A stretch of 64,000 nt of DNA from Parafrankia sp. EUN1f (GTDB taxonomy: Bacteria; Actinomycetota; Actinomycetes; Frankiales; Frankiaceae): positions 1-64,000 of the forward strand of contig NZ_ADGX01000038.1 of the NCBI RefSeq assembly GCF_000177675.1, given 5' to 3'. This document shows, one piece after another, positions 53,282 through 64,000 of this stretch. Within the stretch, counting starts at the first letter, position 1; each line of letters opens with the position of its first letter. The position numbers were made by a program, and so were the translations under genes. Below the pieces are notes generated by a model. The model was not told the origin of the DNA. It saw nothing but the letters and a program-made list of their open reading frames with translations, and did not search any database.

Positions 53282-56200
53282 TTACGGGGAGTGAACGATC
53301 GGGATGGATCCGGGGTGTGCGGCCGCGGCCACGGGGGGTCCGCCGAAGAGGTCCAGCCAGGCGTGGACGGTGTCGGCGGTGGATCTGGCGTGCTCGTTGA
53401 GCATCGACTGGTGGCTGCCCGCGGCGTGCACGAGGTCGAAGTCGAGATCCCAGGTGTCGGCTCCGGCCGCCGACACCGCACCCGCCGGCGTCGGCCTCGG
53501 TTCGCCCCCGGTGTGGGACGCCCGGGTGTGGGCGGCCTCGGCCGGGGTGGGCGACGCCGAGGCGGCGTTGCGGCGGGGGAGGCCCTCGGTGGCGCGGACC
53601 AGGACGATCGGTGTGCGCACCGGGGTCGGCCGCCAGCCCTCGAACAGGTCCAGGTAGGCGCCCTGCGCGGTCACCTGCGCCTCGGTCATGAGCGCGAACG
53701 CCTGATCGTTGACGGCGATGCCGCGCAGCTCCTCGGCGACGTCCGCGTCGGGGATCGCGTCGCCGGGCAGCCAGGTGTCGAGCAGGACGACGGCCGCCAG
53801 CGCGATCCCCCGTGCCTCCAGCCGGGCCGCGACGGCGTGGGCGAGCCACCCGCCGGACGAGTAGCCGGCGAGCGCGACCGGGACGTCCGCGAAATGCCGG
53901 GCCATCGTGTCGGCGTGCAGGTCGACGACGAGATCGGCGGTCGCCGGCAGCAGCTCGCCGTCACCGAAACCGGGGTGGGCGAGGGCATGGACGTCCCGGC
54001 GGCCGTGCAGGTGCAGGGCGAGGCGGGCGAAGGTGTGTGGTCCTGACGGGGCCACCATCGACGGGAGGCAGACCAGCGCGGGGCCGGCCGGACCGGAGGC
54101 GAGCGTGACCGGGGATGGCCGGTGGGGGAGTGCGTCCGGGCTGGTGAAGGTGGGCCGCAGCCGCGCGGCGGCACGCAGCACACCGATTCCCGCCGCGAAC
54201 TTGCCGTCGGCACACGCCTGGCGGTAGAGCTCCCGCACACCGCCGGGCGCGGAGCCGGCTGCGGTGGTGATGCCGCCGCGGTTGCCCGGCGCGCCCCACC
54301 CGCTTTCCGGTCCCGGCCTCCGGCCCATTTCCGGCCCCGGTCCCGGCCCCGGGCCCATGCCTGCCGCGCGATCCAGGCCGCCGGCAGCGCCTCCGCTCGT
54401 GGGCGGGTCCGCGCTGGCTGCCCGGGCGGCGAGCAGTGCCGCGAGGTGGGCCGCCAGATCGGCGACGGTGGGGTGTTCGAAGACGACGGTCGTGCTCAGC
54501 CGAAGGCCGGTCAGCTCGGCGAGTCGGCGGCCCAGCCGCACGGAGGCGACGGAGTCGAAGCCGATCTCCAGGAAGCGTCGGGCGGTGTCCACGTCCGCCG
54601 GGTCGGCATGCCCGAGAATCTCGGCCACCGCAGCCCGGACGAGATCGTGCAGGACGCGCCGGCGCTCGGCGGCCGGCAGCGCGCCGAGGCTGACGGAGGT
54701 GGGCCGGCCCGGGTCGGAGCGGTCCGCGGCCTCAGCGGTGTCCTCGGCCTCTCCGGCCTGCCGGGTCGGCCAGGCCTGCCGGGCCTGCCCCGGCGCCCCG
54801 CCCGCGGTGGCCGTCGAGCCGGCGGCGTTGGCGGGCTGGGTGGTGCCGGGCCGGGAGGGACCTGTGCTCGCGGTGATCTCGTCGAACAGCCGGGACGGCC
54901 GCGCGGCGGTGAAGACCGGCAGGAACAGCTCCCAGTCGACGTCGGCGAACGTGACCACGTCTCCGCTCGGGTCCGTTGCCTGCCCCATCAGCGCGGCGAC
55001 CGCGTCATCGGCGGGCAGCGGACGCAGACCGCGACGCTGCAGGTACGCCTGCCGGGATGGCTCGGCGGCCATGCCCGACCCCGCCCACGGGCCGTAGGCG
55101 ACGCAGGCGGTGGGCAGGCCGGCGGCCAGCCGGAACGCGGCCAGCGCGTCGAGATAGGCGTTCGCCGCGCTGTAGGCGCTCTGCCCGGAGCTGCCCCACG
55201 TCGCCGCGATCGAGGACAGCAGCAGGAGAGGGACGTCGCCTGCGATCCGGTGCGTCAGCTCGGCGGCGGCGGCCTTCGGCGCGAGGACGCCCGCGATCTG
55301 GTCGAGATCGAGCTCGTGCAGCGCCGCGGTGGGCCCGAAGACGCCCGCGGCGTGGACGACCGCCCGAAGCGGCACCTCCTGGTCGGCGACGAGGCCGGTC
55401 AGGAGCGCGGCCAGCTGGTCGCGGTCGGCGGTGTCGCAGCGACGCACCACGACGTCGGTCCCGTGCCCGGCCAGCTCGGCGCGCAGGGCTGCCGCGCCCG
55501 GCGCGTCCGGGCCCCGGCGGCTCGCGAGCACCAGTCGCCGGGCTCCGGCGCGGGCGAGATCACGGGCGATCCGCGCGCCGAGCGCCCCTGTCCCGCCGGT
55601 GACCAGCACGGTCGCGCCACGCACGTCCCAGGTGGACGGACCCGCCGTGCCCGCTGTGCCCGCCGTGCCCGCTGTGCGCGCCGTGCCGGGTGTGGTCGTG
55701 GTGGTCGCCGGGGTGGCGTCGTGGACGAGGCGGGGCACGAACAGCGCAGACGTCCGTACGGCGAACTGGTCCTCGCCCTGGCCCAGGGCCAGCGCGGCGC
55801 CGAGCCAGGCGAGCGCGGAGTCGTCCAGCGCGGGAGGCAGGTCGATCAGCCCGCCCCACACCTCGGGGCGTTCGAGTGCCAGGGTCCGTCCCAACCCCCA
55901 CAGGGGCGCCCCGGTGGGGTCTCGGACGGGGTCGTCGGTGCCGGTGGTGACCGCCCCCCGGGTCAGGGCCCACAGCGGTGCCCGCAGCCCGAGGTCGTGG
56001 TGCGCCTGCGCGAGCGCGCAGGTGAGCGCGAAGCCGGTGGTCAGCGCCGGGTGGTCGGGATGCGCCGTGGTGTCCATCGGGAGCAGGGCGAGCACGCCCC
56101 CGCGGCCGACGGCGGTCGTCGGCGAGTTCGGTGCCGCAGGCGAGTTCGGTGCCGCCGGCGCCCTCGTGGCTGCCGGCGCCCTCAGGGCGTCGAGCTGGGC

Positions 56201-58210
56201 GCCAAGGCAGGCGTCGAGACGGGCGCGCAGCCGCGCGCGGTCGGCGTCGGTGTGCTCCAGCTTCAGTTCGGTGGTGGTGGCACCGAGGCGTTCCAGAATC
56301 CAGCGGATGCGGGAGACCTCCTCGTCGCCGACGCCGGCGGGAGGCCGCAGCACGACCCAGGGGCCTGACAGCGGTGAGCCGGAGCCGCCGGTGCCGGTGA
56401 GTGCCGCCGCGTCGGCGAGTGCCGCGGCTCCGGTGAGCGCGGCGTTGGCGGCGTCGGGCAGCGCGCGCCAGGCAGTGTGGTAGCGGGCCGGGCCCGGGGT
56501 CTGCGCCGAACTGTCCGTGCCGTGGGCTCCGGCCGGGGGCGCGGCGGCGGGGGCGGACGGCTCCATCCAGTACCGCCGGCGCTGGAACGGATAACTCGGC
56601 AGATGCAGCCGCACCGGCCTGGTGGCCGCTCCCGGCGAACGTGCGACCCACGTCTGGGCACGCCCCTGGGGGACGAGCTGCGGATCGAGGCGTGGATCGA
56701 GCTGCGGATCGAGCTGGGGCTGCGGTCGGAGGTCGGGCTGGTTCGCAGGCTCCCAGGCGATCGCGATGCCGTGGGTGTGCAGCTCGGCGAGGGCGTGGTG
56801 CAGCGCGGCGGGCTCGGACCGCCCACTCGCCGCGACACTGACCAGCCGCGGCATCGGCCCCCGTCCACCGTCGCGGGTGGCGGTGCCGTCGATGCCCGCA
56901 CCGGCTCCGACACCTCCGACGGCTCCGACACCTCCGACGGCTCCGACGGCTCCGACGGCTCCGGTGACGCCGTCACCGGCGACTCCGTCATCGAGGACTC
57001 CGTCGTCGAGCACGGTGTCGTCGAGCACGGTGTCGTGGAGGTGGAGGGCGAGCGTGGCCCGTGGACCGATCTCAACCCAGGCCGCGGGGCCAACCCGGCG
57101 GGCGCGGGCGACGGCGTCGCGGAACCGGACGCGCTCCCGGAGGTGGCGCACCCAGTAGCCGGGCTCCGTGACCTGGACGGGTGCCTCCGGGTCACCGGCC
57201 AGATGTCCGGTCAGCGCCGAGAGGAGCGGGACCGTCGGGGTGCGGCAGGTGACGCCGCGGACGACGTCGGCGAAGCGTTCCAGGACCGGGTCCAGATGGG
57301 CGGAGTGGAAGGCGTGCCGGACCGCGAGCCGGCGCGTCGGGCGGCCGCGCGCGGCCCAGTGCGCGGTCACGGCGGCGACGGCGTCATCGTCACCGGCGAT
57401 GACCACCGAGGTGGCGCTGTTGACCGCGGCGATCTCGACACCGTCGAAACCGGCCAGGGAGGCGCCCACCTCGTCCTCGCTGGCACTCACCGCGGCCATC
57501 GCGCCACGGCGGGCGCCGCCCATCAGCCGGCCGCGGGCGGCGACGACCGCGGTCGCGTCGGTGAGCGTCCAGACGCCGGCGACGTGCGCGGCGGTCAGCT
57601 CGCCGATGGAGTGGCCGAGCACGAGCCGGGGGACGAGCCCGAACGTCTCGAGCAGGCGGAACATCGCGACCTGGTACGCGAACAGGGCGCACTGGGTGTA
57701 CAGCGTCTCGTCGAGCAGCGCGGCGCGGCGGGTGCCCGGCGCGGCGAACATGACGTCGCGCAGCGGCTCGTCCAGGTGCGGCGCGAAGTGCTCGCAGATC
57801 GTGTCGAGGGCGCGCGCGAAAATTGGGTAGGTGGCGTGGAGACGTCCGCCCATACCGGGCAGCTGGCTGCCCTGCCCGGTGAACGCGACGGCGGGCCGGG
57901 CACCGGTGGGGTCGGCCGGGGCGCTGCCCCGGACCAGCGCCGGCGTGGTGCCGCCGGCCGCGAGGGTGGCGAGTGCCCCGGCCAGCTGCGCCGTGCGCGC
58001 CGACGACGGACCGTCGAGCACGACCGCCGCGCGGGTGGGCAGGGCCGCGCGGCCGCCGTTGAGGGTGAGTGCGACGTCGTCGCAGCGCAGTTCGGGCTGC
58101 CGGCGCAGGTGCTCGGCGAGTCGCGCCGCGTGCGCCCGCAGCGCGGTCTCGCCGCGGGCCGAGACGACCACCGTCACCGGTGCGGGTACGGATCCCTCCG
58201 GCGCCGGCAT
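53282..58210 (-). CDS. Type I polyketide synthase, 3' part (AT-KR-ACP-TE)
   Basis: This 1642-residue frame continues the KS encoded by 58426-60096 after a one-base frameshift; the true in-frame sequence begins before 58210 with SAFGISGTNAHVILAEPP. Order: AT (about 105-400) with FTGQGSQLPGMG, GHSIGEL and HAFH, which mark malonyl-CoA specificity; KR (about 560-1110) with VTGGTGALG, SSIAATWGSSGQSAYSAAN, where the Trp and lack of LDD indicate an A-type hydroxyl; ACP (about 1180-1260) with an intact GFDS serine; TE (about 1375-1620) with GYSSGG and GSHQSM. No DH or ER. Linkers hold tandem repeats. It should extend once with malonate, reduce to a 3-hydroxyacyl chain and release it. Confidence 0.9.
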   Translation of the reverse strand: MPAPEGSVPAPVTVVVSARGETALRAHAARLAEHLRRQPELRCDDVALTLNGGRAALPTRAAVVLDGPSSARTAQLAGALATLAAGGTTPALVRGSAPADPTGARPAVAFTGQGSQLPGMGGRLHATYPIFARALDTICEHFAPHLDEPLRDVMFAAPGTRRAALLDETLYTQCALFAYQVAMFRLLETFGLVPRLVLGHSIGELTAAHVAGVWTLTDATAVVAARGRLMGGARRGAMAAVSASEDEVGASLAGFDGVEIAAVNSATSVVIAGDDDAVAAVTAHWAARGRPTRRLAVRHAFHSAHLDPVLERFADVVRGVTCRTPTVPLLSALTGHLAGDPEAPVQVTEPGYWVRHLRERVRFRDAVARARRVGPAAWVEIGPRATLALHLHDTVLDDTVLDDGVLDDGVAGDGVTGAVGAVGAVGGVGAVGGVGAGAGIDGTATRDGGRGPMPRLVSVAASGRSEPAALHHALAELHTHGIAIAWEPANQPDLRPQPQLDPQLDPRLDPQLVPQGRAQTWVARSPGAATRPVRLHLPSYPFQRRRYWMEPSAPAAAPPAGAHGTDSSAQTPGPARYHTAWRALPDAANAALTGAAALADAAALTGTGGSGSPLSGPWVVLRPPAGVGDEEVSRIRWILERLGATTTELKLEHTDADRARLRARLDACLGAQLDALRAPAATRAPAAPNSPAAPNSPTTAVGRGGVLALLPMDTTAHPDHPALTTGFALTCALAQAHHDLGLRAPLWALTRGAVTTGTDDPVRDPTGAPLWGLGRTLALERPEVWGGLIDLPPALDDSALAWLGAALALGQGEDQFAVRTSALFVPRLVHDATPATTTTTPGTARTAGTAGTAGTAGPSTWDVRGATVLVTGGTGALGARIARDLARAGARRLVLASRRGPDAPGAAALRAELAGHGTDVVVRRCDTADRDQLAALLTGLVADQEVPLRAVVHAAGVFGPTAALHELDLDQIAGVLAPKAAAAELTHRIAGDVPLLLLSSIAATWGSSGQSAYSAANAYLDALAAFRLAAGLPTACVAYGPWAGSGMAAEPSRQAYLQRRGLRPLPADDAVAALMGQATDPSGDVVTFADVDWELFLPVFTAARPSRLFDEITASTGPSRPGTTQPANAAGSTATAGGAPGQARQAWPTRQAGEAEDTAEAADRSDPGRPTSVSLGALPAAERRRVLHDLVRAAVAEILGHADPADVDTARRFLEIGFDSVASVRLGRRLAELTGLRLSTTVVFEHPTVADLAAHLAALLAARAASADPPTSGGAAGGLDRAAGMGPGPGPGPEMGRRPGPESGWGAPGNRGGITTAAGSAPGGVRELYRQACADGKFAAGIGVLRAAARLRPTFTSPDALPHRPSPVTLASGPAGPALVCLPSMVAPSGPHTFARLALHLHGRRDVHALAHPGFGDGELLPATADLVVDLHADTMARHFADVPVALAGYSSGGWLAHAVAARLEARGIALAAVVLLDTWLPGDAIPDADVAEELRGIAVNDQAFALMTEAQVTAQGAYLDLFEGWRPTPVRTPIVLVRATEGLPRRNAASASPTPAEAAHTRASHTGGEPRPTPAGAVSAAGADTWDLDFDLVHAAGSHQSMLNEHARSTADTVHAWLDLFGGPPVAAAAHPGSIPIVHSP
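56675..56722 (-). repeat. Four 12-bp repeats in PKS linker
   Basis: Four degenerate 12-bp units encode a (Gln-Leu-Asp-Pro)-like repeat in the linker after the AT domain. Confidence 0.75.
56905..56958 (-). repeat. Six 9-bp repeats in PKS linker
   Basis: Units CTCCGACAC or CTCCGACGG repeat six times and encode Val-Gly-Ala/Gly triplets after the AT core. The array keeps the frame. Confidence 0.85.
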
Positions 58211-58425: not shown

Positions 58426-60096
58426 TCAGCAGCTCGAGGGCGCCGCCGCTCCAGTCGACGTGCGGGGTGGGGCGGTGATGTGCAGGCTCGCCGGCAGCAG
58501 CTCGTGGCGCATCGCCTCGACGAGCTTGATGAGGCCGGCGACGCCGGCGGCGGCCTGGGTGTGGCCGATGTTGGACTTCAACGAGCCCAGGTACAGAGGA
58601 CGTCCGGGCGGTCGGGAATCGCCGTACGCGGCGAGCAGGGCGCGGGCCTCGATGGGATCACCCAGCGGAGTGCCGGTGCCGTGCGCCTCGACGGCGTCGA
58701 CGTCGCCGGGCGCCACGCCGGCGTCCGCGAGGGCCTGGGCGATGAGGCGCTGCTGGGACAGCCCGTTGGGCGCGGTCAGCCCGTTGCTGGCCCCGTCGGA
58801 GTTCACGGCGCTGCCGGCGATGACGGCGAGGACGGGCAGCCGACGCGCGCGGGCCTGCGACAGCCGGGTCAGGACGACCACCGCGGCGCCCTCGGCCCAG
58901 CCGGTGCCGTCGGCGTCGGCGGAGAACGCCCGGCACCGTCCGTCGGGGGCCAGGCCCCGTTTGCGGCTGAACTCGACCAGCATCGCCGGCGTGCTCATGA
59001 GGGTGACCCCGCCGGCGACAGCGAGATCACATTCCCCGCTGCGCAGCGAGGCCGCGGCCAGATGGACGGCCACAAGGGAGGCGGAGCACTGGGTGTCCAC
59101 GGTCAGCGCGGGGCCTTCGAACCCGAACGTGTAGGAGACCCGCCCGGCGATCACCCCGAGCGCGTTGCCGGTCAGCAGATGGCCCTGCAGGTCGGCGGGA
59201 GCCCGGTGCCAGGCCGACCCGTAGTCCTGCAGGGACACCCCGGTGAACACGCCGGTACGGCTGCCGCGCAGCGACACCGGGTCGATCCCGGCGTGCTCGA
59301 AGGCCTCCCAGGACACCTCCAGCATGAGGCGCTGCTGCGGGTCCATCGCGACGGCCTCCCGCGGGCCGATCCCGAAGAAGGCCGCGTCGAACAGATCGAT
59401 GCCGGGTAGGAAGCCGCCGCCGCGGGTGTACGTGGTGCCGGGGTGGTCCGGGTCCGGGTGGTGCAGGCCGGCGAGGTCCCAGCCGCGATCCGCGGGCAGC
59501 GGCCCGGTGACGTCCCGGCCGGCGGCGACCAGCTCCCACAGTGCCGCCGCGGAGTCCGCGCCCGGAAGGCGGCACCCGGTCCCGACGACGACCACGGGGT
59601 CGGTCACCGGCCCGACCGCCGAAACGCCTGGCGAACCGGCCATCGGGCCGGTCGCCTGGCCGCCTGCCCGGCCGCCTGCCCGGTCGGTCAGCCGCGTGGT
59701 CACCGGGGCGGCCGTCGGGTCGGACTGGGAGGACGCGCCGCGGGCGGCGTCCTCGCGCCAGCCGAGGACCGCACCGCGCAGATGCGACGCGACCGCCCGT
59801 GGGGTCGGCCGTTCGAACAGCAGCGTCGCCGGCAGCGCCACGCCGGTCGCCGCGGCCAGCCGCTCGCGCAGGGCGTCCGCGGCCCCGCGGTAGATGCCCA
59901 GCGCTCGCCAGGGCGCACCGCGGTCGACCGTGGTCGGCTCGCGGCCGCTCACCGCGACCAGGTGGTCGACGACCAGCGCCAGCAGGGCGTCCACCTGGTC
60001 GGCCGGGTCCAGGCGGACGATCCTGGCCCGCCAGGCGGCCCGGACCTGCTCGGCGGGCGGGCCGGACGGGTGCGGCTGCGGGTTGCTGTTGTCCAT
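58426..60096 (-). CDS. Type I polyketide synthase, 5' part (degenerate ACP-KS)
   Basis: The 556-residue frame starts with an ACP-like domain (about 25-110) that aligns over LGxDSLxAxELRxRL, but the Asp-Ser pair reads Tyr69-Arg70 (LGIYRGAADAL). It therefore has no phosphopantetheine site. The KS (from about 167) has VDTQCSASL with Cys337, EAHGTGTPLGDP and SNIGHTQAAAGV, so the Cys-His-His triad is complete. The frame breaks at a C-run (58469-58472 on this map): restoring one base gives HITAPTPHVDWSGGALELL and joins the AT frame. The corrected gene, 53282-60096, would encode about 2271 residues. Confidence 0.9.
   Translation of the reverse strand: MDNSNPQPHPSGPPAEQVRAAWRARIVRLDPADQVDALLALVVDHLVAVSGREPTTVDRGAPWRALGIYRGAADALRERLAAATGVALPATLLFERPTPRAVASHLRGAVLGWREDAARGASSQSDPTAAPVTTRLTDRAGGRAGGQATGPMAGSPGVSAVGPVTDPVVVVGTGCRLPGADSAAALWELVAAGRDVTGPLPADRGWDLAGLHHPDPDHPGTTYTRGGGFLPGIDLFDAAFFGIGPREAVAMDPQQRLMLEVSWEAFEHAGIDPVSLRGSRTGVFTGVSLQDYGSAWHRAPADLQGHLLTGNALGVIAGRVSYTFGFEGPALTVDTQCSASLVAVHLAAASLRSGECDLAVAGGVTLMSTPAMLVEFSRKRGLAPDGRCRAFSADADGTGWAEGAAVVVLTRLSQARARRLPVLAVIAGSAVNSDGASNGLTAPNGLSQQRLIAQALADAGVAPGDVDAVEAHGTGTPLGDPIEARALLAAYGDSRPPGRPLYLGSLKSNIGHTQAAAGVAGLIKLVEAMRHELLPASLHITAPPRTSTGAAAPSSC
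58464..58472 (-). other. Frameshift site inside the PKS gene
   Basis: Two G4 runs separated by T on the plus strand mark the point where the KS C-terminal frame is lost. Adding one G restores a continuous KS-AT linker. A sequencing error at the homopolymer, phase variation or a true mutation are all possible. Confidence 0.75.
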
Positions 60097-60823
60097 CAGG
60101 ACCTCCCGAGGGGGCTGACGCCTTCAGGTGTCCGGCGCTTTTCGGTTCTTTGTGGTTCCTTTCGGCTCCGGGATTGTTTCGTCGTCTTTCGAGTTACTCC
60201 CGGGGCCTGCCGGAAACTGAGAGGTTCCGCTGTTCCCGCGACCGGATGCCACCGGGAGAACCGGCCGGCATCCGACGTCCGGCGGTGAGTTCCGGCGTGC
60301 CGAGGTTCTCGCGGGCCACGATCCGGGATTTCAGCGTTCAGGTTGGATCCCGTCTCCGGGTGGCCCGTGGCCACGCCGCCGGTTTACGTCGGTGGGCAGC
60401 CACTCGCGAATTCTGCCGGAGCCCGGCGTCGGCTCAAAACGGCGATGGCGCTGACGGGCTACGCCGAACGGGTTTGCCGGTGGTCCGTCGGTCCCGGCCG
60501 GTCAGGGCTTTCGTCGGGCCGTCGGGTGGGAGACGGCACAGCTGCGGGTGGCGCTCTAATACGTTCGGGCCATTGGTTGGCACCGACGGATTGTCGACAT
60601 CACCGCCGATCCGTAGTGTCGCTTTCCGCTGTTACCGGGTTCATCACGCACCGACGGCGGGCCGGGTTCCTGTCGGTGGGGGCCGTGGGCTGCCCGAACA
60701 GCCCGGCCACCCGGGCTGACGGGGTTCCCGGGCTGACGAATGCCCGAGCCGTCACGTCACCGGCCCGGCGGTGCGGAGTGCGGCGGTGTACCGCTGTCTC
60801 CCGACCGAGGAGCGAGGACGCGC
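60097..60823. other. Divergent promoter region of PKS and signalling cluster
   Basis: No gene was recognised. The part next to the PKS start (60130-60200) has a strand bias: the plus strand is rich in T and G with TTCGGTTC-like repeats. Confidence 0.4.
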
Positions 60824-61267
60824 ATGCGAAAGATCATTCCGCGGGACGCGGGCCGTGACGACGGGCGGTCCGCGGCGGCACGGCGGCTGAGCATGGTGTT
60901 GGGGCGCCGGTCAGCCGGGCGGTTCGCCCAGCGGCGGTCGAGCATCGAGGTGGGTACCGACTGGCGCCGGTGCGGTGCCGGGGACGGCGGCTGCGGGGTG
61001 CTGCTGCCGCTGAGCCAGCCGACCTGCCCCCGCTGTGGTCGGACGAACCGCGAGGACCTGGCCCCGCTGGACCTGCGGCGCGCGCTGCTCGCCCCGGATG
61101 CCGGCGAGGACACGGTGAGGATCCTGCGTCCCGCGGCCGTGACCTCGGCCGTGACCTCGGCCGTGACCGCGACCGCCCCGGCTTCTGCGGCCGCCGCGGT
61201 TTCGGCCACTTCGTCGTCCCCGTCGTCCCCGTCATCCCCGGCCACACCGGGTGACTCCTGCGGGTGA
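60824..61267 (+). CDS. Cys-rich (possible zinc-ribbon) protein beside the signalling triad
   Basis: The 147-residue product has a basic N-terminal half (RRLSMVLGRRSAGRFAQRRSS), then RRCGAGDGGCGVLLPLSQP and TCPRCGRTN, a C-x6-C plus C-x2-C pattern suited to one zinc ion. The last 50 residues are Ala/Ser/Thr/Pro repeats. ATG 60824 follows GAGGA. It is the first gene of a run with the vWA, phosphatase and kinase genes. Short zinc-ribbon segments also occur with related kinases, so it may be a scaffold or substrate. Function not established. Confidence 0.65.
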   Translation: MRKIIPRDAGRDDGRSAAARRLSMVLGRRSAGRFAQRRSSIEVGTDWRRCGAGDGGCGVLLPLSQPTCPRCGRTNREDLAPLDLRRALLAPDAGEDTVRILRPAAVTSAVTSAVTATAPASAAAAVSATSSSPSSPSSPATPGDSCG

Positions 61268-61383
61268 ACGCCTGCCCTCCGGCCCGCGATTATTCATCGG
61301 AAAGTGCCCTCAGCTAACCCAGGACTCGATGTCGAGCGTGGTCGGAGCATCGAAATGTTCGCGCGCTGTGAAACGATAAGGGC

Positions 61384-62256
61384 ATGTACTCCGCCGAGAT
61401 CAATCGCAAGCAGCCGGCATGTCTGCTGCTCGTCATCGATCACTCGACGTCGATGGCAGAGACCTGGGCCGGTGGAACAATGAGCAAGGCTGACCAGCTC
61501 GCGCTCGCCGTCAATCGGCTGCTCGGTAACGCGGTGTTGCTCTGCAGTAGGGGTGACGATCGGGTCTACGACTATTTCGAGGTAGGAATTCTGGGCTATG
61601 GGCGGGGGGTCGCGCCGGTCCTGTATGGTTCGAGCGTGAGTCGCCCGCTGCTGCCTATCAGCGAGGTCGCGCTGAATCCGAACCGGGTCGACCATGTCCT
61701 GCGGAAGGTGCCTGACGGCGCGGGCGGCCTGGTCGAGGTGCAGACCCCGATACCGGCCTGGGTCGATCCGGTGGCGGACGGGTGGACGCCGATGGTCGAG
61801 GCACTGCGGGTCGCCGCCTGGGTCGTCGACGGCTGGTGCCGCACCCACACCGCCAGCTTCCCGCCGATCGTGGTCAACGTGACCGACGGGCAGAGCACCG
61901 ACGGTGATCCGCGGGCGGCGGCCGCCCAGGTGCGGGCCGCGGGCACGGCGGACGGCAACGCGCTGCTGTTCAACGCGCACCTTTCCGCGACCATGCGTCG
62001 GGCCGTGACCTTCCCCCGGGACCGCGCGGACCTGCCGGGCGAGTTCGCGCAGGTGCTGTTCGACATGTCCAGCCACCTGCCGCCCGCGATGGTCGCGGCG
62101 GCGGACAGCCTCGGCTATCCCGCGACCGCCGGGTCGAAGGGCTTCCTGTACAACGCCGACGTCACCGCGCTGATCGAATTCCTCGACATCGGTACCCGGG
62201 CGGTGACGCCGACGGGCCTGCGTGACCTCACCGTCGGGCCACGGTCGAGCGGATGA
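61384..62256 (+). CDS. von Willebrand factor A domain protein (TerY-like)
   Basis: The 290-residue product is a stand-alone vWA domain with a complete MIDAS: DHSTSM (DxSxS) near the start, a Thr in DGWTPMVEAL and the Asp in VNVTDGQSTDGDP. It lacks a signal peptide and is cytosolic. TerY-type vWA proteins bind metal and partner proteins in tellurium-resistance and stress systems. Its stop overlaps the ATG of the phosphatase gene (ATGA), so they are co-translated. It is the first member of a vWA-PP2C-kinase triad. Confidence 0.87.
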   Translation: MYSAEINRKQPACLLLVIDHSTSMAETWAGGTMSKADQLALAVNRLLGNAVLLCSRGDDRVYDYFEVGILGYGRGVAPVLYGSSVSRPLLPISEVALNPNRVDHVLRKVPDGAGGLVEVQTPIPAWVDPVADGWTPMVEALRVAAWVVDGWCRTHTASFPPIVVNVTDGQSTDGDPRAAAAQVRAAGTADGNALLFNAHLSATMRRAVTFPRDRADLPGEFAQVLFDMSSHLPPAMVAAADSLGYPATAGSKGFLYNADVTALIEFLDIGTRAVTPTGLRDLTVGPRSSG

Positions 62257-63086
62257 CACCCGTGTCCGTCACCGTCCCCACCGCGGCTCCGGCCGTTGCG
62301 GAGGGCTCCGCCGCGTGCGCCGGCTCCGCTGCCGTCGACCCCGCTGTTTCCGCCGGCTCTGCTGTGTCGGCCGGCTCCGTCGGGGCGGCGCGGCTCACGG
62401 TGACGTCCCGCACGGTGGCGAAGCTCGGCCGCGCCGACGAGGAGAACGAGGACTGCTGCGCGGCCTGCCCCGAACGGGGGAGGTTCGCGATCGCCGACGG
62501 TGCCTCGACCTCGGCGCGTCCCGAGGTCTGGAGCCGGCTGCTGGTGCACGCGTTCGTGTGCGAGGCCGTCGACCCGCTGGCCCCCGAGGTGCTGGCCGGG
62601 CTGCGGGAGCGGTGGTGGGAGCAGGTGAGCCGGCCGGGCCTGCCCTGGTACGCGCGGGCGAAGCTGCAGTCGGGGGCGGATGCGTCCTTTCTGGGCCTGT
62701 GTGTCGACGTCGAACGCCGGCGGTGGGCGGCGACCTGCGTCGGTGACTCCTGTGTGTTCCACCTGAGCGGTGGACGGACCCGCGCCGCCGGCCCGGTGCT
62801 GCGAGCCGAGGACTTCTCCCGCTTCGCGCAGCTCGTCGGCAGCCGCGGCGCGGCCGTTCCCGCTCCGACCGTGCTGGGCGGCACCTACCAGCCCGGGGAT
62901 GTGTTCGTGCTCGCCACCGACGCGCTCGCCCGGCTGCTGCTGCGCGCCGACGCCGACCGCGGGCGGATGCCCTCGCCGGGCTGGCTCGCGCACAGCGCCG
63001 GCCGGTTCGCCCGGATGGTCGCCGCTTACCGCCACCATGGATGTCTCGCCAACGACGACACGACGCTCTGTGTGGTCCAGACGTGA
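62253..63086 (+). CDS. PP2C-family protein phosphatase
   Basis: The 277-residue product has an Ala/Ser/Val-rich N-terminal 45 residues of low complexity, then a PP2C domain: ADEENEDCC, FAIADGASTSARPEVW, VGDSCVFHL, FVLATDAL and LANDDTTLCVV. The Asp residues of the two-metal site (EDCC, DGAS, ATDA, DDTT) are visible. It should remove phosphate from Ser/Thr of proteins phosphorylated by the kinase next door. It overlaps the vWA gene and is followed 61 bp later by the kinase gene. Confidence 0.88.
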   Translation: MTPVSVTVPTAAPAVAEGSAACAGSAAVDPAVSAGSAVSAGSVGAARLTVTSRTVAKLGRADEENEDCCAACPERGRFAIADGASTSARPEVWSRLLVHAFVCEAVDPLAPEVLAGLRERWWEQVSRPGLPWYARAKLQSGADASFLGLCVDVERRRWAATCVGDSCVFHLSGGRTRAAGPVLRAEDFSRFAQLVGSRGAAVPAPTVLGGTYQPGDVFVLATDALARLLLRADADRGRMPSPGWLAHSAGRFARMVAAYRHHGCLANDDTTLCVVQT

Positions 63087-63147
63087 CTGCGAGTTCTCTC
63101 GGGTGTCTGCTCCGCGAGGGCGGGCACGGGTGTGTGCGGGCGTCCGC

Positions 63148-64000
63148 ATGAAGCTGCCCACCCTGATCGACTACCAGCAGGCCGTCCAGGTGCCGCGGCT
63201 GGCCTTCCTGGACGACCAGCTGCGCCAGAGCGTGCCGCGGCTCACCCCGCTGGGCATGCCGGCGGTCGCCACCGGCGGCTTCGCGCTGACCTTCGACGTC
63301 AGCCACGGCCGGCGCCGGTACGCGGTGCGCTGCTTCCACCGGCACAGCGACAACCTGGAGCTCCGCTACGCCTGCATCGCCGACTTCGTGCGTTCCGCGG
63401 CGCTGGCGTTCCTGGTGGACGTCGACTACCTGCCGGCCGGCATCCGGGTCGGCGAGCGTGCCTGGCCGATCGTGCGGATGGAGTGGATCGACGGGGTCCG
63501 CCTCGACGACTGGGTCCAGGAGAACCTCGACCGCCCGGCCCGGCTGGATCGGGCCCGGGTGAGCCTCAACTCCGCCGTCGCCGAGCTGCGGCGCCGCGGT
63601 GCCGCGCACGGCGACCTGCAGCACGGGAACATCCTGGTGCTGCCGGACTCGTCCATCCGGCTGGTCGACTACGACGGGATGTACCTGCCCGCCCTGGGCG
63701 CCCTGGGCGCGTCCGAACGCGGCCACCGCAACTACCAGCATCCGGACCGTTCGAACCAGTACGACGTCACGCTGGACCGGTTCGCCCAGGAAGTCATCGT
63801 GGTGTCGCTGGCCGCGCTCGCCCGGGATCCGCAGCTGTGGCGCGAGTTCAACACCGGCGAGAACCTCATCCTCTCGGCGGCCGACTTCGCCGACCCGGGA
63901 GCGTCGGCCCTGTTCGCGCGCCTCGAACGGATGCCGGTCGTCGGCCCGGCCGCCCGGCGGCTGCGCGACGCCTGCCTGGTGGACTACTCCGACGCCGGCG
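63148..64000 (+). CDS. Ser/Thr protein kinase-like protein, 5' part
   Basis: At least 284 residues are encoded before the window ends. The product has a kinase fold: the glycine-rich loop region GMPAVATGGFALTF, YAVRCF where the usual beta-3 Lys is Arg61, the catalytic loop HGDLQHGN (154-161) and VDYDG (174-177) for DFG. The Lys-to-Arg change suggests altered ATP binding. ATG 63148 is chosen because relatives start near MxLPT; GTG 63130 with GAGGG upstream is the alternative. With the vWA and PP2C genes it completes a TerY-P-like triad. The 3' end lies outside. Confidence 0.85.
   Translation, partial: MKLPTLIDYQQAVQVPRLAFLDDQLRQSVPRLTPLGMPAVATGGFALTFDVSHGRRRYAVRCFHRHSDNLELRYACIADFVRSAALAFLVDVDYLPAGIRVGERAWPIVRMEWIDGVRLDDWVQENLDRPARLDRARVSLNSAVAELRRRGAAHGDLQHGNILVLPDSSIRLVDYDGMYLPALGALGASERGHRNYQHPDRSNQYDVTLDRFAQEVIVVSLAALARDPQLWREFNTGENLILSAADFADPGASALFARLERMPVVGPAARRLRDACLVDYSDAG

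Follow-up and report, generated by a model that had tools for sequence, protein, structure and literature searches.

What does a set of vWA, PP2C-type phosphatase and protein kinase genes, headed by a small Cys-rich gene and divergent from a polyketide synthase (PKS) gene, do in Parafrankia sp. EUN1f? We addressed this question in a stretch of 64,000 nucleotides (the window) of contig NZ_ADGX01000038.1, which has 67,079 bases in total and belongs to a genome of 9.35 Mb. The initial annotation had described a TerY-P-like triad that might control the PKS or a stress response. The layout is as described there: four genes in the given order on the plus strand, the Cys-rich gene first, the vWA and PP2C genes overlapping, and the PKS gene starting at 60096 on the minus strand. 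The features of the locus are as follows.

60096 (start), minus strand: PKS gene, divergent from the zinc-ribbon operon.
60425..60480, strand not given: weaker conserved non-coding block, GCTCAAAA...GGCTACGC..AACGGG.
60562..60631, plus strand: promoter-like block of 70 bp, conserved in six Parafrankia genomes.
60824-61267, plus strand: zinc-ribbon (Cys-rich) gene, 147 aa, at the head of the operon.
61384-62256, plus strand: TerY-type vWA gene, 290 aa.
62253-63086, plus strand: PP2C-type phosphatase gene, 277 aa.
63148 to contig position 64854, plus strand: kinase (STK-OB) gene, 568 aa, of which the window holds 63148-64000.
64985-65572, minus strand: pyridoxamine-phosphate-oxidase (PNPOx)-like gene, beyond the window, past the end of the kinase gene.
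65718 onwards: PknB/AfsK-type kinase gene, the third gene after PP2C; end of the contig at 67079.

The three TerY-P genes lie next to each other within one operon, in the same order in six Parafrankia genomes. The vWA and PP2C genes share a 4-base ATGA overlap, and 61 bases separate the PP2C gene from the kinase gene. The PKS gene is split near 58.47 kb into two minus-strand frames (58426-60096 and 53282-58210). In a close relative (G019) it is a single open frame of 2288 codons, and the two sequences differ at the break site in the length of a C run; hence the frame break is likely a sequencing or assembly error.

Here, we find that the locus is a real TerY-P system of the STK-OB form. The initial annotation of a TerY-P-like triad with a Cys-rich first gene is supported, and all three PADLOC component models are matched: the vWA protein by TerY (E 6.8e-79, residues 2-274), the phosphatase by PP2C (E 5.6e-24), and the kinase part by STK_OB (E 6.6e-81, a match that ends at residue 284). 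Pfam gives weak matches only for the three proteins, that to PP2C_2 (6.5e-4) lying under the cut-off. Chance is ruled out by the strength of the PADLOC matches together with the recurrence of the whole order in five other Parafrankia genomes. The vWA protein has an intact MIDAS, comprising DxSxS (D19, S21, S23), T135 and D168, residues that are invariant in an alignment of ten diverse sequences; a sequence search for a solved structure of this vWA family returned no match at E 0.01. In a tree of vWA proteins, Parafrankia groups with Dactylosporangium and Micromonospora, with support of 0.875 for the ten-member group. The aligned phosphatase likewise keeps the metal-binding Asp motifs of PP2C (FAIADGAS, GDS, ATDAL, NDDTT).

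The assignment to the STK-OB form follows from the OB fold at the C-terminus of the kinase. The kinase domain spans residues ~20-290 and the OB fold residues ~365-515. The N-terminal 300 residues were modelled as a protein kinase with a pLDDT of 92, and the domain model superposes on protein kinases in the PDB with Z ~16 and an rmsd of ~3.5 across ~230 residues. Modelled separately, residues 340-529 have a mean pLDDT of 68, with core blocks at ~80-90, and VIA-align matches the core of this model at Z ~9-10 to the OB folds of asparaginyl-tRNA synthetase, Teb1, HIN domains, RPA and POT1. The Pfam OB family tRNA_anti-codon is the top match, sub-threshold, in five of the six Parafrankia kinases. 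The OB region also aligns with kinases of Dactylosporangium, Micromonospora and Nocardia and with one archaeal kinase, and in the Micromonospora and archaeal proteins the PADLOC STK_OB match itself reaches across this region. Thus the C-terminal OB fold is a predicted one, based on modelled structure and intermediate homologues. Within it, the Parafrankia kinases carry a variable low-complexity insertion.

How does the locus compare with known systems? The STK-OB form of TerY-P (Gao et al. 2020; PADLOC; PMC10889362) has the same three genes side by side and the same kinase-OB architecture, and the TerY match of the Parafrankia vWA protein is full-length. The Parafrankia locus differs in having an extra, free-standing zinc-ribbon gene in front and a long insertion within the OB domain, and in being fixed throughout the genus, whereas the known form occurs patchily. 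The TerY-P sets of Type II and III-A CoCoNuT systems (PMC11090510) share the vWA, PP2C and kinase triad and include a zinc ribbon; there, however, the ribbon forms the kinase C-terminus, whereas in Parafrankia it is separate. A C-terminal ribbon was not found in the Parafrankia kinase, which ends in the OB fold and has no Cys pairs there. Nor were genes for the McrB-like GTPase, CnuH helicase or CnuE nuclease of CoCoNuT systems noticed in the stretch inspected, 53-67 kb. Actinobacterial GAP1-N2 GTPase systems (Kaur et al. 2020, PMC7159879) also combine a kinase, a PP2C phosphatase and a stand-alone vWA protein, but a GTPase-centric system of this kind can be rejected, as the single GAP1-N2 place of the genome sits on another contig (C329). 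Finally, the triads of ter operons, as cited in a later account (Anantharaman et al. 2012, in PMC11090510), resemble ours in their TerY-type vWA protein, phosphatase and kinase; those operons have terD-type genes, and the contig of the Parafrankia triad has none. The locus is a variant of a known system, characterized by a free zinc ribbon, genus-wide fixation and a promoter-like block of its own.

The zinc-ribbon protein has the core IEVG.DWRRCG.GDGGCGVLLPL.Q.TCPRCGRT.R.DLAPL, which is nearly invariant in the six Parafrankia genomes; both ends of the protein have diverged. The region of its start codon, GAGGAGCGAGGACGCGCATG, is present in all six, offset in the alignment in one of them. A profile search found no match to the protein outside the genus. 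Zinc ribbons recur with triads of this general kind, in several positions. Frankia triads of another type (L048-L051) encode their own, unrelated-looking ribbon between kinase and vWA; some kinases elsewhere (L077, L080, L087) end in a ribbon; and ribbon fusions to such kinases have also been reported (PMC11090510, PMC7159879). In one of the Frankia triads (L048, 14230-15924), the order is kinase, membrane/zinc-ribbon protein, vWA and PP2C, followed by what by eye is a groEL-like gene.

The DNA between the PKS and zinc-ribbon genes is mostly unalignable across species outside two conserved blocks. The 70-bp block is 88-99% identical to that of the window in the five other Parafrankia genomes. 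It contains TTGTCG (60591-60596) and TAGTGT (60614-60619), separated by a 17-base spacer and oriented to the zinc-ribbon gene, and would fit a dedicated promoter of an operon that begins with this gene. A generic sigma-70 scan called no site in it. An imperfect inverted repeat, TCGGGCCA...TGGCACCGA, stands directly upstream of the -35-like box and could be an operator. Neither the loci of the PKS orthologues nor the triads outside Parafrankia have the block. No second good copy exists in any of the six genomes (the next match has E 0.01), and with one good copy per genome a role as a regulon element can be rejected. The weaker block at 60425-60480 is 79-100% identical across 40-55 bases at the five other Parafrankia loci. 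An Rfam search of 60000-61500 came back empty, and a riboswitch or other RNA element ahead of the first gene was likewise rejected.

All six Parafrankia genomes have the full locus (PKS, zinc ribbon, vWA, PP2C, kinase) in identical order. Each of the six also has the PNPOx-like gene beyond the kinase, and five of the six stretches read include the PknB/AfsK-type kinase gene further on. In a sample of 396 genomes from across the phylum, TerY and STK_OB are both strongly matched in the identical four, Parafrankia EUN1f included, and 18 further loci with a strong STK_OB match all have vWA and PP2C genes. Among 80 relatives of the vWA protein from bacteria and archaea, all three genes are present for 68, the remainder lying mostly at contig ends. 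Related triads reach across many phyla of bacteria and into some archaea. Two cyanobacterial plasmids, of which one is mobilizable and the other conjugative, carry them as well. In Nocardia, such triads are found close to a DUF5131 gene (with matches to PADLOC candidate-defence models), an IS3-type transposase gene and an HNH endonuclease gene (L070, 2522-3454; L072, 3312-4627 and 10894-11436), a more mobile setting than that in Parafrankia. The EUN1f genome itself contains a second TerY-P-type triad (contig C279; L038, 8661-12083), in which the C-terminus of the kinase consists, by eye, of membrane helices instead of an OB fold; next to it lies a gene whose 1217-residue product combines kinase, FHA and ABC-transporter domains.

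We propose, with a probability of roughly 0.6, that the Parafrankia locus is a stand-alone anti-phage phospho-switch, an STK-OB TerY-P system that has become fixed at a single chromosomal position in Parafrankia. Anti-phage activity is ascribed to it by homology. According to PMC11090510, which cites Gao et al. 2020, TerY-P-like modules of the OB type are stand-alone anti-phage systems. T7-like phages are named as their target (PMC7699616), and P. aeruginosa is protected by TerY-P such that most cells survive infection (PMC10889362). Homology to these modules supports the proposal, as do the three PADLOC components in one operon with an OB fold, the co-occurrence of TerY with STK_OB across genomes and of STK_OB with vWA and PP2C at further loci, and the presence of related triads on plasmids or near a transposase, HNH or candidate-defence gene. 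Mechanistically, the OB fold of the kinase, perhaps aided by the zinc ribbon, might bind a nucleic acid or nucleoprotein that forms as infection proceeds. Binding would then lead to phosphorylation of a target that the vWA protein, as a putative metal-dependent adaptor, gathers through its metal site, and the PP2C phosphatase would strip the phosphates, keeping the switch off or resetting it. Three observations count against the proposal. The locus is syntenic in all six genomes and thus not variable, unlike most defence systems; no defence genes were noticed among the genes adjoining the operon; and the kinase is without the usual beta-3 Lys or a conserved alpha-C Glu.

The fixed, syntenic state of the locus leaves room for its main rival, in which a former defence module now serves Parafrankia as a housekeeping switch, for example in DNA or envelope stress or in development, and is no longer mainly anti-phage. 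Selection is in line with this idea. Comparing the genes of each other Parafrankia genome with the window copy, we obtained dN/dS values of 0.08-0.17 for vWA, 0.23-0.34 for PP2C, 0.05-0.25 for the kinase core, 0.20-0.38 for the OB part of the kinase and 0.47-0.63 for the whole zinc-ribbon gene. Purifying selection is strong on the vWA protein and the kinase core. The synteny in six of six genomes, the conserved promoter-like block belonging to the operon, and the AfsK/PknB-like kinase gene that lies third after PP2C point the same way. On the other hand, the closest triads outside the genus, those of Dactylosporangium, Micromonospora and Nocardia, have other surroundings. On balance, we consider a housekeeping role possible but unlikely. 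A more specific idea is doubtful: TerY-P would be a four-part system here, with the zinc ribbon as an obligatory sensor or substrate and a kinase that works with Arg for the ATP-anchoring Lys, and it would have become fixed in this one genus as a housekeeping phospho-switch that senses nucleic acid.

Another conceivable reading makes the kinase a scaffold (a pseudokinase), with the system acting via binding, not phosphate transfer. The initial annotation drew attention to Arg61 in place of the beta-3 Lys. The residue is indeed there, within YAVRCF, but it does not mark this copy as odd or dead: of 92 homologous kinases, 79 have Arg there, 12 have Lys and one has a gap, and Arg occupies the position in each of the 17 rows (from 16 distinct genomes) in which the OB match is strong. 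Arg being the majority state in this alignment, Arg61 is a family feature; it may still mean unusual catalysis, though as a trait of the family. A Glu is typical of the alpha-C helix of protein kinases; no conserved one was found among the 92 aligned sequences. Residue R73 of the alpha-C helix is Arg in 90 of them (two gaps), and together with the beta-3 Arg it suggests a different ATP-site geometry. Loss of the Lys and of a conserved Glu would suit a pseudokinase, as would the alignment of Arg61 with the beta-3 position of PAK1 in PDB entries that have Arg there, which we take to be kinase-inactivating Lys-to-Arg constructs. Against this, Asp156, Asn161 and the Mg-binding Asp174 are kept in 87-88 of the 92 kinases (the remainder nearly all gaps), and the constant PP2C companion makes most sense if something gets phosphorylated. 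Overall, a pseudokinase seems improbable.

Regulation of the divergent PKS by the triad, as proposed initially, is highly unlikely: the divergent arrangement is kept in six Parafrankia genomes, but the stretch read at orthologous PKS loci of nine Frankia/Pseudofrankia genomes (KS ~62-71% identical) contains no triad gene, and the promoter-like block is closer to, and directed at, the zinc-ribbon gene. Nor was a PKS recognised (by eye, with Pfam for few genes) near the OB-type triads of Dactylosporangium, Micromonospora and Nocardia. The PKS-triad adjacency is thus seen in Parafrankia only and lends no support to control of the PKS. A simple empty-site comparison is precluded by the distance of 340-380 kb that separates the PKS from the PNPOx-like gene in two complete Frankia chromosomes.

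Scarcely any weight can be given to the other initial suggestion, a Ter-type phospho-signalling system for tellurite or metal stress: it has in its favour the TerY homology, the metal-binding vWA protein and zinc ribbon, and a metal-sensing hypothesis (Anantharaman et al. 2012, as cited in PMC11090510), but all ten TerD-domain places of the genome are on other contigs, and the OB-type kinase is that of the stand-alone anti-phage form. That no terD-type gene was in view had already been stated, and this remains so when the contig is followed to its end at 67079. Beyond 64000 lie the end of the kinase gene, the PNPOx-like gene and the PknB/AfsK-type kinase gene, and no ter gene.

Returning to the anti-phage phospho-switch, the phage-blocking effect of TerY-P is known, and the literature searched gave no trigger, substrate or mechanism for it. 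The Parafrankia locus offers a vertically inherited series of such systems together with a conserved zinc-ribbon partner, a candidate substrate or sensor. It also raises a question for the family as a whole, that is, whether a kinase can transfer phosphate when Arg fills the ATP-anchoring position and the alpha-C helix lacks a conserved Glu. If the Arg kinase transfers phosphate, it would represent an unusual catalytic solution; if it does not, TerY-P would act by binding.
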